NCBI GenBank assembly: GCA_947456955.1
Contig: CANGTQ010000001.1
Location: 1 to 64,000, forward strand
Direction of reading: 5' to 3'
DNA: 64,000 nucleotides
From: Flavobacteriaceae bacterium
Lineage (GTDB): Bacteria > Bacteroidota > Bacteroidia > Flavobacteriales > Flavobacteriaceae
Shown here: piece by piece, positions 15,664 to 44,360 of the stretch
How the letters are laid out: the number at the start of each line of letters is the position of its first letter
Numbering within the stretch: the first letter of the stretch is position 1
Made by a program: the position numbers and the translations under genes
The notes under the pieces: generated by a model
Databases searched by the model: none
Told to the model about the DNA's origin: nothing
Seen by the model: only the letters and a program-made list of their open reading frames with translations

Positions 15664-17430
15664 ATGTTTAACATTTCTGCCCTCAAAGAAATGAAGCTTG
15701 CTGAGCTTCAGGAAATTGCCAAATTAGCGAAAACAATTAAAGTAACAGGTGCCAAAAAAGATACGCTTATTGCTGAAATTCTGGAACACCAAAACAAAAA
15801 TTCTTCCCAAGCTGAGCCAATAGCGGCTTCCGATTCAAGCGATAGCGAACCGGCGAAGCAGAACCCACTAGATAATAAGACTAAACGAGTTCGTATCTCA
15901 CCTGAAGCTAAAAAAAATGCTGAAAACAATCAGAGTGACTTATTTGCCGAAGAACTAGAAGTTGTTGCAAAACCGATTATTGAAAATCAAAATCCAAAGT
16001 TTAAAAAACCACTTTTTGCAAAAAAGAATTACAATACACCTAATATAACTTCAGAAGAGCAACCATTAGAAAGTGATTCAGAAGTGATAAACACGAGCGT
16101 TAGCGAACAGTCGCAGCAAACAGAAGCTAATCCAAACCAAAATAATGATGAAAATCAGGTTCAAAAGCCAAGACATCATAACCCACATGAGCGTAAGCGA
16201 ACTGACGAAGTAAATCAAAATGGGAACAATGGGAATGGAAACACCAATGCAAATAACAACAACCCAAATTTTAAAGGCAAAAAGCATAATAACTTCAGAG
16301 ATTCCGATTTTGAGTTTGATGGCATTATAGAAAGTGAAGGCGTACTAGAAATGATGCCTGATGGCTATGGTTTCCTGCGTTCTTCGGATTACAACTATTT
16401 GGCTTCGCCGGATGACATTTATCTTTCAACTTCACAAATCAGATTGTTCGGTTTAAAAACCGGAGATACTGTTAAAGGTGTAGTTCGTCCTCCAAAAGAA
16501 GGAGAAAAGTTTTTCCCTTTGGTTAGAGTTTTGAAAATAAATGGACATGACCCACAAGTGGTTCGTGACAGAGTTTCTTTCGAACATTTGACTCCAATAT
16601 TTCCAAAGGAAAAATTCAATATAGCCGAAAAGCAAGCAAGTGTGTCTACTCGTATTATAGATTTATTTTCTCCAATAGGAAAAGGACAACGTGGAATGAT
16701 AGTGGCGCAGCCAAAAACAGGTAAAACAATGTTGTTAAAAGACATTGCGAATGCCATTGCTGCCAATCATCCTGAAGTTTATCTAATCGTTTTACTTATT
16801 GACGAACGTCCGGAAGAGGTTACCGATATGCAGAGGAGTGTACGTGGTGAAGTTATTGCGTCTACTTTTGACAGAGAACCTTCAGAGCACGTAAAAATTG
16901 CGAATATCGTTCTAGAAAAATCAAAGCGTTTGGTTGAATGTGGTCATGATGTAGTAATATTGCTAGACTCAATTACGCGTTTGGCGAGAGCTTACAATAC
17001 GGTGCAACCAGCATCCGGAAAAGTGCTTTCGGGTGGAGTGGATGCCAATGCGTTACAAAAACCAAAACGTTTCTTTGGTGCAGCCCGTAATGTTGAAAAT
17101 GGAGGTTCGTTAAGTATTATTGCTACGGCCTTAACCGAAACAGGTTCAAAAATGGACGAAGTAATCTTCGAAGAATTTAAAGGAACAGGAAACATGGAAT
17201 TACAATTGGACAGAAAAATTGCCAACCGTCGAATTTTCCCTGCTATCGATTTGACATCATCAAGTACGCGTCGCGACGATTTATTACTAGATCCAAACAC
17301 ATTAAAACGTATGTGGATACTGCGTAAATTTCTTGCCGATATGAATCCGGTGGAAGCTATGGACACTATTAACGATAAGATTAAGAAAACCCGAAACAAC
17401 GAGGAATTCCTCATTTCGATGAATGATTAA
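15664..17430 (+). CDS. rho: Transcription termination factor Rho with long disordered N-terminal insertion
   Basis: [74 protein letters not shown]. Confidence 0.97.
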
Positions 17431-20300: not shown

Positions 20301-20310
20301 GTTACGATTG

Positions 20311-20705
20311 TGGAGTCGCCGAGAATCGAACTCGGGTCCAAACAAGCAACTAAAGAGTTTTCTACACGCTTATTTTCTGATTGGATTTTCGATATAGTGA
20401 TAGGCCAGAAACAGCCACACCATACTTATCTTCTTAAATTTTCGTAACAGCCCCGAAGCTTCACTGTTCTTAGGTTTATTTTTACGATTCACCTAAACCG
20501 ACCGCCACAAACCAAAGCTATCGAGGTGAATCCTGCTTTCCTACCTTGTAGGACGAGGCTAATCTTACTATAATTCAGATTATGCAGCAAGAGCGTAGTT
20601 TCCTTCGCCGTTTATGTTTTTGTGAATTTGGATTTACGAGCAAAAAACACAATGCTCGACGTGCTTACAATTCAATTCGACTTGCTGTCAAAACCAGTCG
20701 ACCCC
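20311..20705 (-). ncRNA. ssrA: Transfer-messenger RNA (tmRNA); tag ORF (complement 20580..20609) reads GEGNYALAA*
   Basis: 5' GGGGTCGACTGGTTTTGACAGC, 3' T-arm GGACCCGAGTTCGATTCTCGGCGACTCCA, tag GGC GAA GGA AAC TAC GCT CTT GCT GCA TAA. Confidence 0.97.
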
Positions 20706-36939: not shown

Positions 36940-38229
36940 CTATTGCATTAAAAAGGATTTAAATTCCTCATAATTTTTAATTCTTGTGCTCACTTTTTCT
37001 TTGCCAAGCACACTTTCAATTTGTGTTGGAATAGGTAATTTCAAATTTAATAAAGGTTCAACAGTATCCAAGAATTTTATAGGATGTGCTGTTTCCAAAA
37101 ATACTCCAACACTGTTTGGTTGTTTCGCCATTTCTTTTTTCAAGCCGAGATAACCCACAGCGCCATGAGGTTCGGCTATGTATTTTGTTTTATTATAAAT
37201 GTCTTTGATAGTAATCTCTGTTTCAGCATCAGTAAAAGAATACGAAGAAAAATCTTTTTCAAATTCAGATAAATTGTTATGATATAACTCCTGAATTCTT
37301 ATGAAATTACTCGGATTACCAACATCCATAGCGTTTGATATTGTTGCAACGGATGGTTTTGGGTCATAGATTCCTTCTTCTAAAAATCGAGGTACGGTAT
37401 CATTAGTATTCGTAGAAGCCACAAAATGAGCAATAGGCAATCCCATTTTTTTTGCCATAATACCGGCACAAATATTTCCGAAGTTTCCACTCGGGCATGA
37501 TAAAATTATTGGTTTGTTATGTTTCTTCAATTGTTGGTAGGCAAAGAAAATATAGAACATTTGCGGCAGCCAACGTGCTATATTTATAGAATTGGCTGAG
37601 GTAAGATTCTTGTGTTTCAAACTTTCATCTAGAAAAGCTTTCTTCACCATGTCTTGACAATCGTCAAAAACTCCGTCAACTTGCAATGCTTTTATATTTC
37701 GACCTAAAGTTGTTAACTGTCTTTCCTGGATATCACTAACTTTTCCGGAAGGGTAAAGAATGATAACTTCTACACCTTTTATGCTTAGAAATCCACTGGC
37801 AACTGCTCCTCCTGTATCACCTGAAGTAGCAACTAAAACAGTAACATGCTTATCGTCATTACGATTAAAATAACCAAGGCAGCGTGACATGAATCGGGCA
37901 CCAACATCCTTGAATGCCATTGTTGGTCCGTGAAATAGTTCTAAAGAAAACACATTGTCTTCTACCTGAACACAAGGAAAATCAAAACAAAGCGTTTCAG
38001 TTATAATACGTTTTAGTTCCGTTTCCGGAATCTCATCACCAACGAATTGTTTAATAGCCTCATAAGCTATTTCTTCATGAGTCAGTTTTTCGATGTTAGC
38101 AAAGAAAGAATCGGGGAGAGGAGTAATAGTTTCCGGGAAATACAAACCGCGGTCAGGTGCTAGGCCTTCAACAACGGCTTTTTGAAAATTTACTTTATGG
38201 GAGTTATTGTTTAAACTATAATACTTCAT
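36940..38229 (-). CDS. thrC: Threonine synthase
   Basis: FHGPTMAFKDVGARFMSRCLGYF; VLVATSGDTGGAVASGF; SCPSGNFGNICAGIMAKKMGLP. Confidence 0.95.
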   Translation of the reverse strand: MKYYSLNNNSHKVNFQKAVVEGLAPDRGLYFPETITPLPDSFFANIEKLTHEEIAYEAIKQFVGDEIPETELKRIITETLCFDFPCVQVEDNVFSLELFHGPTMAFKDVGARFMSRCLGYFNRNDDKHVTVLVATSGDTGGAVASGFLSIKGVEVIILYPSGKVSDIQERQLTTLGRNIKALQVDGVFDDCQDMVKKAFLDESLKHKNLTSANSINIARWLPQMFYIFFAYQQLKKHNKPIILSCPSGNFGNICAGIMAKKMGLPIAHFVASTNTNDTVPRFLEEGIYDPKPSVATISNAMDVGNPSNFIRIQELYHNNLSEFEKDFSSYSFTDAETEITIKDIYNKTKYIAEPHGAVGYLGLKKEMAKQPNSVGVFLETAHPIKFLDTVEPLLNLKLPIPTQIESVLGKEKVSTRIKNYEEFKSFLMQ

Positions 38230-38297: not shown

Positions 38298-39218
38298 TTA
38301 TATAATTTTAGTTCCTTGATCATTCACTTTTGAAATATGCATATCAAAGGCAATACCTGTATCTAGGTATGCGTTACTCATAGCATAGGCAACTTTTTCG
38401 GCTATTGCTTGTCCTTTGCATAAAGCAAAAATCGAAGGTCCCGCACCTGAAATTCCGGAACCTAAAGCTCCGTTTTCTAAAGCAGCATTTTTCACTAAAT
38501 CAAAATTGGGAATCAAATGTTTTCTGGCTGGCTCGACTATTACATCGTTAAGCGATCGTCCAATCAATTCGTAATCTTTAGTATACAAACCGGCAATTAA
38601 TCCTCCTAGGTTTCCCCATTGTGTAATAGCATCCTTCAAAGCTACCGTTGGTGATAAAACCGCGCGAGAATCAGAAGTTTTTACTTCAATATGAGGATGT
38701 AAAACTACAGCGTATAGCTCACTCGGACTTTCAATCTTAATCACATCCAACGGATTATAGCCACGAACTAAAGTGAATCCTCCTAATATACATGGAGCCA
38801 CATTATCGGCGTGCTCACTTCCGCTGGCAATAACTTCTCCTTTCATTGCAAAATAAACCAGTTCATGTTTTGAAAATGGTTTACCCAAAAGCTCGTTGAT
38901 TCCAAAAACAGCTCCGGCAGCACTAGCCGAAGAACTTCCAATTCCACTTCCGGCTTTTATTTTTTTATGGATTTCAATTTCGAAACCAAAGTCGGATTGC
39001 GTCGCATTTAACAAAGCCAAACCAGCAACTCCGGCCACGTTCTTCTCTGTTTCCAATGGTAAGTCTGCACCAGTTATTTTAGTAATCTTGATGCCTTTTT
39101 CAGCAACTTTACGAATAATCATTTCGTCACCGATTCCTTCGAGGCACAATCCCATAACGTCAAACCCACAATTTAGATTGGCAATAGTGGCAGGGCAGAA
39201 TATTTTTAATTCGTTCAT
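38298..39218 (-). CDS. thrB: Homoserine kinase
   Basis: IFCPATIANLNCGFDVMGLCLEG; KIKAGSGIGSSSASAAGAVFGIN GHMP kinase motif. Confidence 0.95.
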   Translation of the reverse strand: MNELKIFCPATIANLNCGFDVMGLCLEGIGDEMIIRKVAEKGIKITKITGADLPLETEKNVAGVAGLALLNATQSDFGFEIEIHKKIKAGSGIGSSSASAAGAVFGINELLGKPFSKHELVYFAMKGEVIASGSEHADNVAPCILGGFTLVRGYNPLDVIKIESPSELYAVVLHPHIEVKTSDSRAVLSPTVALKDAITQWGNLGGLIAGLYTKDYELIGRSLNDVIVEPARKHLIPNFDLVKNAALENGALGSGISGAGPSIFALCKGQAIAEKVAYAMSNAYLDTGIAFDMHISKVNDQGTKII

Positions 39219-39319: not shown

Positions 39320-41767
39320 TTAAACATTTCCAATTCTAATTACGTCGGCAAAAATCCCTGATGCTGTAACCGCTGCACCTGCGCCAGCACCTTTAATGAT
39401 TAAGGGTTGGTCAATATAACGTTCGGTGTAGAATTCAACGATATTGTCTTTTCCTTCCAGATTGTAAAACGGACTTTCTTTAGGAATGAATTGCAAACCA
39501 ACCGATGCTTTTCCGTTATCAAACTTGGCCACAAATTTAATGCGACTGTCTTTTGATTTGGCATCCTCTAATAGCTTGTTGAAATGCGCGTCATGCTTCG
39601 TTAGTGATTTAAAAAAATCGTCATTGTTAGTTGTGTCCATACATTCTTTTGGTAGGAAACAATTGTTTTCAATTTCTTCTATATCCATTTTATAACCGCT
39701 TTCGCGTATAAGGATTAATATCTTTCGAGCCACATCAACACCACTTAAATCGATTTTTGGATCAGGCTCTGTAAAGCCTTGAACGCCTGCCTCTTTAACT
39801 GCATCGTGAAAATTATAAGTTTCACTAAAATTATTAAAAATAAAGTTCAAACTTCCTGATAAAACGGCTTGGATTTTATTTACTTTATCACCCGAAGCAA
39901 TCAAATGTTTTAGTGTATCAATGATTGGTAATCCGGCACCAACATTCGTTTCAAATAGGAAAGGAGCATTGTATTTTCGGGAAAGATTTTTAAGGTTTTT
40001 ATAATTGTCATATTCAGATGAACAAGCAATTTTGTTACACGTAACTACCGCGATATTTTGGCTTAAGAACTTATCATAAATGTTTGCAATATCATAGTTT
40101 GCGGTAATATCAACAAAAATACTATTTCGTAAGTTGAGGTCTTTTACTTTGGCAATAAAATTTTCTACGTTTGTTTTTTCTCCTCCGGCAACAGCAGCTT
40201 TCCAATCTTTTAGATTGATTCCTTCTTCGTCAAAAACCATAGTTCTTGAGTTTGCCATTGCTATGACACGAAGGTTGATTTTCAGATTTTCTTTTAGGAA
40301 TTTTTTCTGCTGACTGATTTGGTCAACAAATTTTTCTCCGACATTTCCAACACCCATTACAAATAGATTCAACTGCTTGGTATTGTCTTCAAAGAAACGT
40401 TCGTGAAGCGTATTTAGTGCTTTTTTCACATCTTTTTCATTGATAACTACAGAGATGTTTCTTTCTGATGCACCTTGAGCTATAGCTCTAATGTTTACGT
40501 TGTTTTTTCCAAGTGTGCTAAACATTTTACCGCTGATTCCCTGATGATTTTTCATGCTTTCGCCAACTAAAGCAACGATGCACAAGTCTTTTTCCACAAT
40601 GGTTGGATCAACTCTGTTTTGAGTAATCTCAATTTCAAAAGTTTTATCGATGGCTGCTTTGGCTCTGTCGGCTTCGGCATTAAGAATTCCAATACAAATG
40701 GAATGTTCTGAAGAAGCCTGGGTAATAAAAATTACATTTATATTATTTTGCGAAAGCACTTCGAATAAACGTTTGGAAGAACCTGCAACTCCAATCATTC
40801 CAGAGCCTTCGAGTGTAAGTAAGGCAATGTTGTCGATATGCGAAATTCCTTTGATGGGGTTGGCTGTTGCTTTTGGAGTATCAGAAATTAATGTTCCATA
40901 TATTTCTGGTTCAAAAGTGTTTTTAATGAAAATAGGAATGCTGTCTTTTAAGACGGGCTGTATGGTTGGTGGATATAATACTTTGGCACCAAAATGCGAG
41001 AGTTCCATAGCTTCCTGATACGATATGGTTTCTATTGGCTGTGCTTGTTTTACTATCTTCGGATTGGCGGTAAACATTCCGTTTACATCGGTCCAGATTT
41101 CTAAAACTTCAGCTTTTACAGCTGCAGCAATAATTGCAGCAGTATAATCAGAACCGCCACGACCAAGCGTTGTAATATTACCATCTAGTGAAGAAGCAAT
41201 AAAACCGGGAAATAACACAACCTGATTGGTATTGGACTTGAAATAATCGGAAATCAATTTATTGGTTACTGAAAAATCCACACTTGCTTTTCCGAAGTTG
41301 GAATCGGTTTTAATTAGCTCTCGACTGTCTTTAAAAGTTGAATTGCTTACTTTTTGTTTCAGTGCTACGGCAATAATTTGAGAGGATAATAATTCACCAA
41401 ATCCTGCTACAATATCAGCGGTTCTATTTGACAATTCGCCCAACAGATAACAGCCGTCTAATAATGTTTTTAAGTGATTGATATGGCTATTAATTGTTTC
41501 AATAATTTCGCTTTGTTCACTTAAGAGAATTAATTCGTCAATAGCATCTTTGTGTTTTTTTTCTATCTGACTAACAATATCTTTATAGTATTTGTCTTTT
41601 GCAGAAGCTGTTTTCCCGGCTAATAGTAACATATCGGTTATGCCACTAAAAGCGGAAACAACTACGGCCAGTTTATCTTCCTTGCTTTTGTTTGTTACAA
41701 TTGCTATTGTTTTTGAAATATTTTCTGAATTGGCAACTGAGGTTCCGCCAAATTTTAATACTATCAT
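39320..41767 (-). CDS. thrA: Bifunctional aspartate kinase/homoserine dehydrogenase I
   Basis: MIVLKFGGTSVANSENI; ACT region; homoserine dehydrogenase FVMGVGNVGEKFVDQI..., LSGSLNFIFNNFSE, GFTEPDPKIDLSGVDVARKILILIRESG. Confidence 0.96.
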   Translation of the reverse strand: MIVLKFGGTSVANSENISKTIAIVTNKSKEDKLAVVVSAFSGITDMLLLAGKTASAKDKYYKDIVSQIEKKHKDAIDELILLSEQSEIIETINSHINHLKTLLDGCYLLGELSNRTADIVAGFGELLSSQIIAVALKQKVSNSTFKDSRELIKTDSNFGKASVDFSVTNKLISDYFKSNTNQVVLFPGFIASSLDGNITTLGRGGSDYTAAIIAAAVKAEVLEIWTDVNGMFTANPKIVKQAQPIETISYQEAMELSHFGAKVLYPPTIQPVLKDSIPIFIKNTFEPEIYGTLISDTPKATANPIKGISHIDNIALLTLEGSGMIGVAGSSKRLFEVLSQNNINVIFITQASSEHSICIGILNAEADRAKAAIDKTFEIEITQNRVDPTIVEKDLCIVALVGESMKNHQGISGKMFSTLGKNNVNIRAIAQGASERNISVVINEKDVKKALNTLHERFFEDNTKQLNLFVMGVGNVGEKFVDQISQQKKFLKENLKINLRVIAMANSRTMVFDEEGINLKDWKAAVAGGEKTNVENFIAKVKDLNLRNSIFVDITANYDIANIYDKFLSQNIAVVTCNKIACSSEYDNYKNLKNLSRKYNAPFLFETNVGAGLPIIDTLKHLIASGDKVNKIQAVLSGSLNFIFNNFSETYNFHDAVKEAGVQGFTEPDPKIDLSGVDVARKILILIRESGYKMDIEEIENNCFLPKECMDTTNNDDFFKSLTKHDAHFNKLLEDAKSKDSRIKFVAKFDNGKASVGLQFIPKESPFYNLEGKDNIVEFYTERYIDQPLIIKGAGAGAAVTASGIFADVIRIGNV

Positions 41768-41802: not shown

Positions 41803-41829
41803 ATTTTTCTTCTTTCATCATGAAAGAAC
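41803..41829. promoter_or_regulatory. Palindromic hairpin between thr leader ORF and thrA
   Basis: TTCTTTCATCATGAAAGAA inverted repeat. Confidence 0.5.
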
Positions 41830-41852
41830 AGGTCACAGGATTATATGAAAAA

Positions 41853-41981
41853 TTATACCCCAAACGGGGTTGTAGTTGATGTGGTAGCAACAGTAGTTAC
41901 AGCTAATAAATTAGCTGCTGAAGTTAAAGTAACTATGTTTTCTTTATTCGACATGTTTTTCAAAAATACTACTTTTTGCAT
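41853..41981 (-). CDS. Candidate Thr-rich leader peptide of the thrABC operon: MQKVVFLKNMSNKENIVTLTSAANLLAVTTVATTSTTTPFGV* (alternative start at 41954)
   Basis: 42-aa ORF upstream of thrA, 9 Thr in total, 7 within TTVATTSTTT; ACCCC-GTTT-GGGGT hairpin overlaps its last codons, followed by ATAATTTTT. Confidence 0.6.
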   Translation of the reverse strand: MQKVVFLKNMSNKENIVTLTSAANLLAVTTVATTSTTTPFGV

Positions 41982-44332: not shown

Positions 44333-44360
44333 AAAAGCCACGAATAAATCCGTGGCTTAA
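44333..44360. terminator. Terminator
   Basis: AAGCCACG-AATAAATC-CGTGGCTT. Confidence 0.8.

Follow-up and report, generated by a model that had tools for sequence, protein, structure and literature searches.

The threonine operon and its leader

Within the window, the whole stretch of 64,000 nucleotides that was analysed, the genes thrA, thrB and thrC lie on the minus strand, preceded by a short threonine-rich ORF. Upstream of this leader there is a divergent histidase-type lyase gene. The features of the locus, all on the minus strand, are the following.

41961..41968: predicted sigma-A -7 promoter box TATTTTTG, consensus TAnnTTTG, conserved in the family, with a start predicted at ~41956
41853..41954: leader ORF, probably of 33 codons, MSNKENIVTLTSAANLLAVTTVATTSTTTPFGV*, with orthologues in the genus
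41899..41918: hairpin 1, GCAGCTAA-TTTA-TTAGCTGT, inside the leader and before the Thr run, a pause-hairpin candidate from covariation
41868..41897: Thr codon run TTVATTSTTT, the putative sensing codons
41857..41870: hairpin 2, ACCCC-GTTT-GGGGT, abutting the stop codon and followed across 127 loci
41838..41847: block CATATAATCC, conserved in alignment and spacing
41810..41828: hairpin 3, TTCTTTCA-TGA-TGAAAGAA, with sequence varying from genus to genus and no U-tract after it
39320..41767: thrA, aspartokinase-homoserine dehydrogenase (Pfam AA_kinase, ACT, Homoserine_dh)
38298..39218: thrB, homoserine kinase of the GHMP family (Pfam and operon position)
36940..38229: thrC, threonine synthase (Pfam Thr_synth_N, PALP)

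The 42-codon ORF described in an earlier note was confirmed by reading the sequence at 41853..41981 (minus strand), 85 nt before thrA, as was its density of 7 Thr in 10 residues. Among the 462 short ATG ORFs in the window no other has this density, the next best having 4 Thr, and it is reached by 1 of 21,984 ORFs in Markov controls. The run contains no Ile codons. The hairpin ACCCC-GTTT-GGGGT with its ATAATTTTT tail, the palindrome now called hairpin 3 and an antisense ORF of 50 aa, all mentioned in the same note, were also located.

Of 115 Flavobacteriaceae loci, 112 have a TAnnTTTG box immediately 5' of the leader, where shuffles expect about 8, and the published map of F. psychrophilum places such a box at -12 to -5 (PMC9723704). 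Because of this position and the location of the box in the window, transcription is predicted to start near 41956, around 2 nt ahead of the leader ATG (41954). The first ATG of the 42-codon ORF (41981), being upstream of the box, is probably unused, and the leader then probably starts at 41954 and has 33 codons. A thrA transcript beginning downstream of 41853 had been named as an argument against the leader; instead, the conserved box lies upstream of it, which at the sequence level puts the leader within the predicted transcript.

In the genome of the window, which is 99.99% complete, no match was found for hisG or ilvD. This points to auxotrophy for His and branched-chain amino acids in an organism that has kept thrABC, apparently under control. 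The window also carries an ORF with the Rho RNA-binding domain at 15664..17430 (+), the rho gene itself.

Conservation of the leader and its Ile codons

We searched 150 genomes of the same genus with ThrA and read the upstream DNA for 90 loci, including that of the window. A Thr-rich leader was found at 84 of them, usually ending in T(n)PFGV, T(n)PLG, T(n)P or T(n)L, and was absent at 6 (L015, L022, L028, L030, L084 and L085). In other genera of the family, 29 of 29 loci have a Thr-rich leader, mostly with Thr and Ile codons, a few of these being recognised by eye owing to a non-ATG start or a short run. In the last set of other genera, the leader is absent upstream of thrA in L254, L255, L264, L267 and L271. 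Several other families of the phylum also have it (L136 to L149 in part, L156, L159 and L160). Paralogous ThrA genes (L192 to L210), apparently located after a metX-like C-terminus, have no Thr leader upstream. The leader is ancestral to the family and not a local invention.

In the alignment of the thrA upstream regions, orthologous leaders retain the Thr run with a free third base; at position -1, for instance, ACT is used 51 times, ACA 20, ACC 5 and ACG 3. Gaps inside the leader ORF are multiples of three. By these alignment patterns, the leader is a translated sequence under selection. Two diverged members of the genus (L089 and L090) have Ser runs before the hairpin, TSSSSSTTSTP and TSSSSSSISTL, which replace part of the Thr run. 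The distance from the leader to thrA differs greatly among loci, from about 60 to 270 nt. Where it is ~180 nt (L033, L050, L054 and other loci of the genus), an AT-rich insert of ~80 nt separates hairpin 3 from thrA, and such an insert is present in some species only.

The presence of Ile codons follows that of ilvD. Of the 95 loci compared, leaders have Ile among their final 20 residues in 62 of 68 cases with ilvD in the genome and in 6 of 27 without it. On the ThrA tree there are ~10 independent contrasts, of which a mean of 6.2 go as expected and none against, with a median p of 0.03; this value was reached once 15 loci were added, since the first 80 alone gave no significant link after tree correction (median p 0.125), and it becomes 0.03 to 0.06 without the uncertain genome L003. 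Genome incompleteness could add error, for example in that genome. Thr counts were equal in both groups (7.29 and 7.25 in the first 80 loci). As evidence for sensing of the pathway's end products by the leader, this association is of moderate strength. The genome of the window lacks ilvD and therefore should not make isoleucine.

Hairpins and the end of transcription

In 82 aligned leaders, hairpin 1 has changes on both sides at all six counted pairs, a value as high being obtained in 0 of 500 shuffles, and its fold z ranges across groups from -1.2 to -2.7. When hairpins 1 and 2 are counted together, 69 cells show both-side changes, where shuffles give 11.8, and pairing falls from 90% to 49% if the partners are slid by one column. 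Column by column, with a tree-based null, no pair was found at E<1 because indels shift the hairpins; covariation was measured instead by a count over the named structures, with the slid partners as controls.

Hairpin 2, usually ACCC(C)..GGGGT, has the stop codon in the loop or at its 3' edge across 127 loci. In L026, L038 and L076, reading continues a few codons past the usual stop. The loci were chosen partly for possessing this hairpin, so that the fraction paired is not independent evidence; such evidence comes from L156 and L159, where the arms are swapped to ACGGG..ACCCGT with the stop in the loop, and from a C-G to A-T change at pair 4. In most loci the ATAT of the CATATAATCC-type block begins 9-13 nt past hairpin 2, approximately the distance from a hairpin in the exit channel to the active site of the polymerase. 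As a motif common to other leaders of the genome, this block was rejected, its three exact consensus matches being all coding-like.

A plain intrinsic terminator in the hairpin that overlaps the final codons is not supported: the U-tract is weak in the window and missing in several other genera. The terminator scan returned hairpin 2 of the window as a weak candidate of 5 bp, not retained in other genera, and in most Flavobacteriaceae, the window included, neither hairpin 2 nor hairpin 3 has a conserved U-tract after it. The downstream region with hairpin 3 has a fold z of about -1 to -1.6, and hairpin 3 was ruled out as a terminator since its tail is A-rich rather than U-rich. The 3' arm of hairpin 2 paired with the RNA downstream no better than in shuffles (z about +0.3), so no antiterminator was found. 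A pairing of GGGUAUA, from that arm, with UAUAAUCC of the CATATAATCC block looked good by eye and was equalled by shuffles. C exceeds G in the leader and in the stretch after hairpin 2; this bias would suit Rho, which is only suggestive.

Genuine U-tract terminators between leader and thrA occur in a few relatives (L257, L270, L162, L164 and L189). Instead of the common form without terminator, L257 and L270, which belong to two other genera of this family, have a compact attenuator of the classical Thr(/Ile) kind that ends in a strong U-tract terminator. In these two loci and in L189, from another family, the classical arrangement is complete: a hairpin holds the Thr or Thr/Ile codons in its 5' arm and the stop codon within it or close to its tip, and a strong terminator with a U-tract follows. 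The distant Bacteroidota thrA loci L162, L164 and L189 have Thr/Ile leaders together with strong terminators.

A putative attenuator and its alternatives

We consider it likely that thrABC is preceded by a ribosome-mediated leader-peptide attenuator. The control of thrA-thrB-thrC by a leader peptide, as first put forward, gains support from the conserved Thr run, the decay of the antisense ORF and the promoter placed upstream. Transcription would begin ~2 nt before the leader ATG, and hairpin 1 probably pauses the RNA polymerase so that the ribosome catches up. When charged Thr-tRNA is scarce, the ribosome would stall at the Thr codons; as these extend into the 5' arm of hairpin 2, the hairpin would be held open and the polymerase would proceed into thrA. 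With plentiful threonine, it would get to the stop codon at hairpin 2 and then depart; hairpin 2 would close while the polymerase is at the ATAT block, ~10 nt further on, and transcription would be halted before thrA. In species that make isoleucine the leader has Ile codons too, and both end products would be read. Points against this model are that some thrA loci have no leader and that a ribosome that has arrived at the stop codon would sit on hairpin 2.

The stop step is less sure than attenuation as a whole, since no conserved U-tract terminator and no antiterminator pairing were found in the common form. In the lineage of the window, the stop may depend on Rho, or on a pause stabilised by a hairpin, and not on a strong intrinsic terminator; this is the weakest step, and we put its chances somewhat short of even. 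More doubtful is a general picture for most Flavobacteriaceae in which the attenuator has no terminator, the short stop-codon hairpin and the ATAT at a fixed ~10 nt from it form a ribosome-gated polymerase pause, Rho ends transcription, and Ile codons are lost with the isoleucine branch.

Hairpin 2 could itself be a weak intrinsic terminator, with ATAATTTTT as its tail, that a ribosome stalled on the Thr codons blocks at the 5' arm and that is otherwise self-sufficient. The terminator scan of the window chose this hairpin, ~4.4 T per 9 nt follow it in the genus, and the geometry agrees with a stall that opens the hairpin. However, it has just 5-6 pairs with the T-run at the far end of the tail, the hairpin is followed by GGGGTAAGCAACACG or GGGGTAGGCAAAAAC in L098 and L102, from other genera, and a typical terminator of the window (44335..44358) is far stronger, which leaves this explanation rather unlikely. 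A lower probability still is given to a post-transcriptional action, in which stalling alters the processing or stability of the mRNA or the translation of thrA and not termination. It would fit the lack of a canonical terminator, and hairpin 3 could protect a processed thrA mRNA, but the conserved elements track the leader and not the start of thrA, across a spacer of such variable length, and real terminators occupy the equivalent place in relatives.

Repressor control, with CATATAATCC as a DNA operator or with the leader being incidental, is very improbable: the block is indeed very well conserved in sequence, although its exact consensus copies elsewhere in the genome are the three coding-like matches, and the codon run, the link between Ile and ilvD and the covarying hairpin would be left without explanation. 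We give practically no weight to a chance ORF opposite a real gene. The antisense 50-aa ORF does exist; however, the codon patterns speak for the minus-strand leader, most close relatives have lost the start or the frame of the antisense ORF and kept the leader, and the Thr density of the leader is far above controls.

Leader-peptide attenuation belongs to textbook knowledge, with most examples from Proteobacteria. A comparative study of attenuators by Vitreschak and others (2004) reportedly mentions Bacteroidetes/Chlorobi. The codon run, its placement and the stop-codon hairpin match the design of thrL and trpL. The attenuator proposed here resembles E. coli thrL (Rfam Thr_leader, RF00506) in that a leader with Thr/Ile codons directly precedes thrABC, that of the window being without Ile, and in the stop codon near the first hairpin and the reading of both end products. 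On the other hand, the strong terminator and antiterminator of thrL were not found in the common Flavobacteriaceae form, and the sensing codons are here located after hairpin 1 and run into hairpin 2. RF00506 gave no match at its gathering threshold in the window and none for L001 at E<=1; only the distant Bacteroidota loci L189 and L164 score with this model, at 36 bits, below the threshold of 55. The sole Rfam match of the window at gathering threshold is a tmRNA gene at 20308..20705 (-). In tnaC, a Rho-dependent leader-peptide switch, excess free Trp leads to a stall at the stop codon. The thr leader would be similar in that termination depends on where the ribosome stands on a short ORF and needs no intrinsic terminator, whereas its signal would be a shortage of charged Thr-tRNA.

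Bacteroid-trp RNA sits before trp genes and includes Trp codons, so it concerns another amino acid and another operon than the thr leader. It is listed as a Bacteroidetes cis-regulatory RNA (Rfam RF01692; PMC2864571), and this model gave no match at gathering threshold for the window or the leader. The authors of a 2010 survey were aware of no leader-peptide attenuation demonstrated outside Proteobacteria and Actinobacteria before their own case in Firmicutes (PMC2965389). For amino-acid operons of F. psychrophilum, leader-peptide attenuation is stated in general terms (PMC9723704); that proposal concerns a closely related organism and the same proposed mechanism, and the main text of the paper names no operon, peptide or structure. 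The idea of attenuation in flavobacteria is thus not new, having been hinted at there, and the thr element is not a member of Rfam Thr_leader. Our literature search returned no paper describing a thrA element in Bacteroidota, its conservation across the family, the stop-codon hairpin or the link between Ile and ilvD.

The element would represent a deeply conserved Bacteroidota version of such control, with a nearly leaderless leader ORF in a group mostly without Shine-Dalgarno signals. As the stop-codon hairpin is not a recognisable terminator, it raises the question of how transcription stops. An Rfam model of the element could serve to annotate thr operons throughout the phylum, and the loss of Ile codons along with ilvD suggests that leader sequences can tell which products a genome is still able to make.
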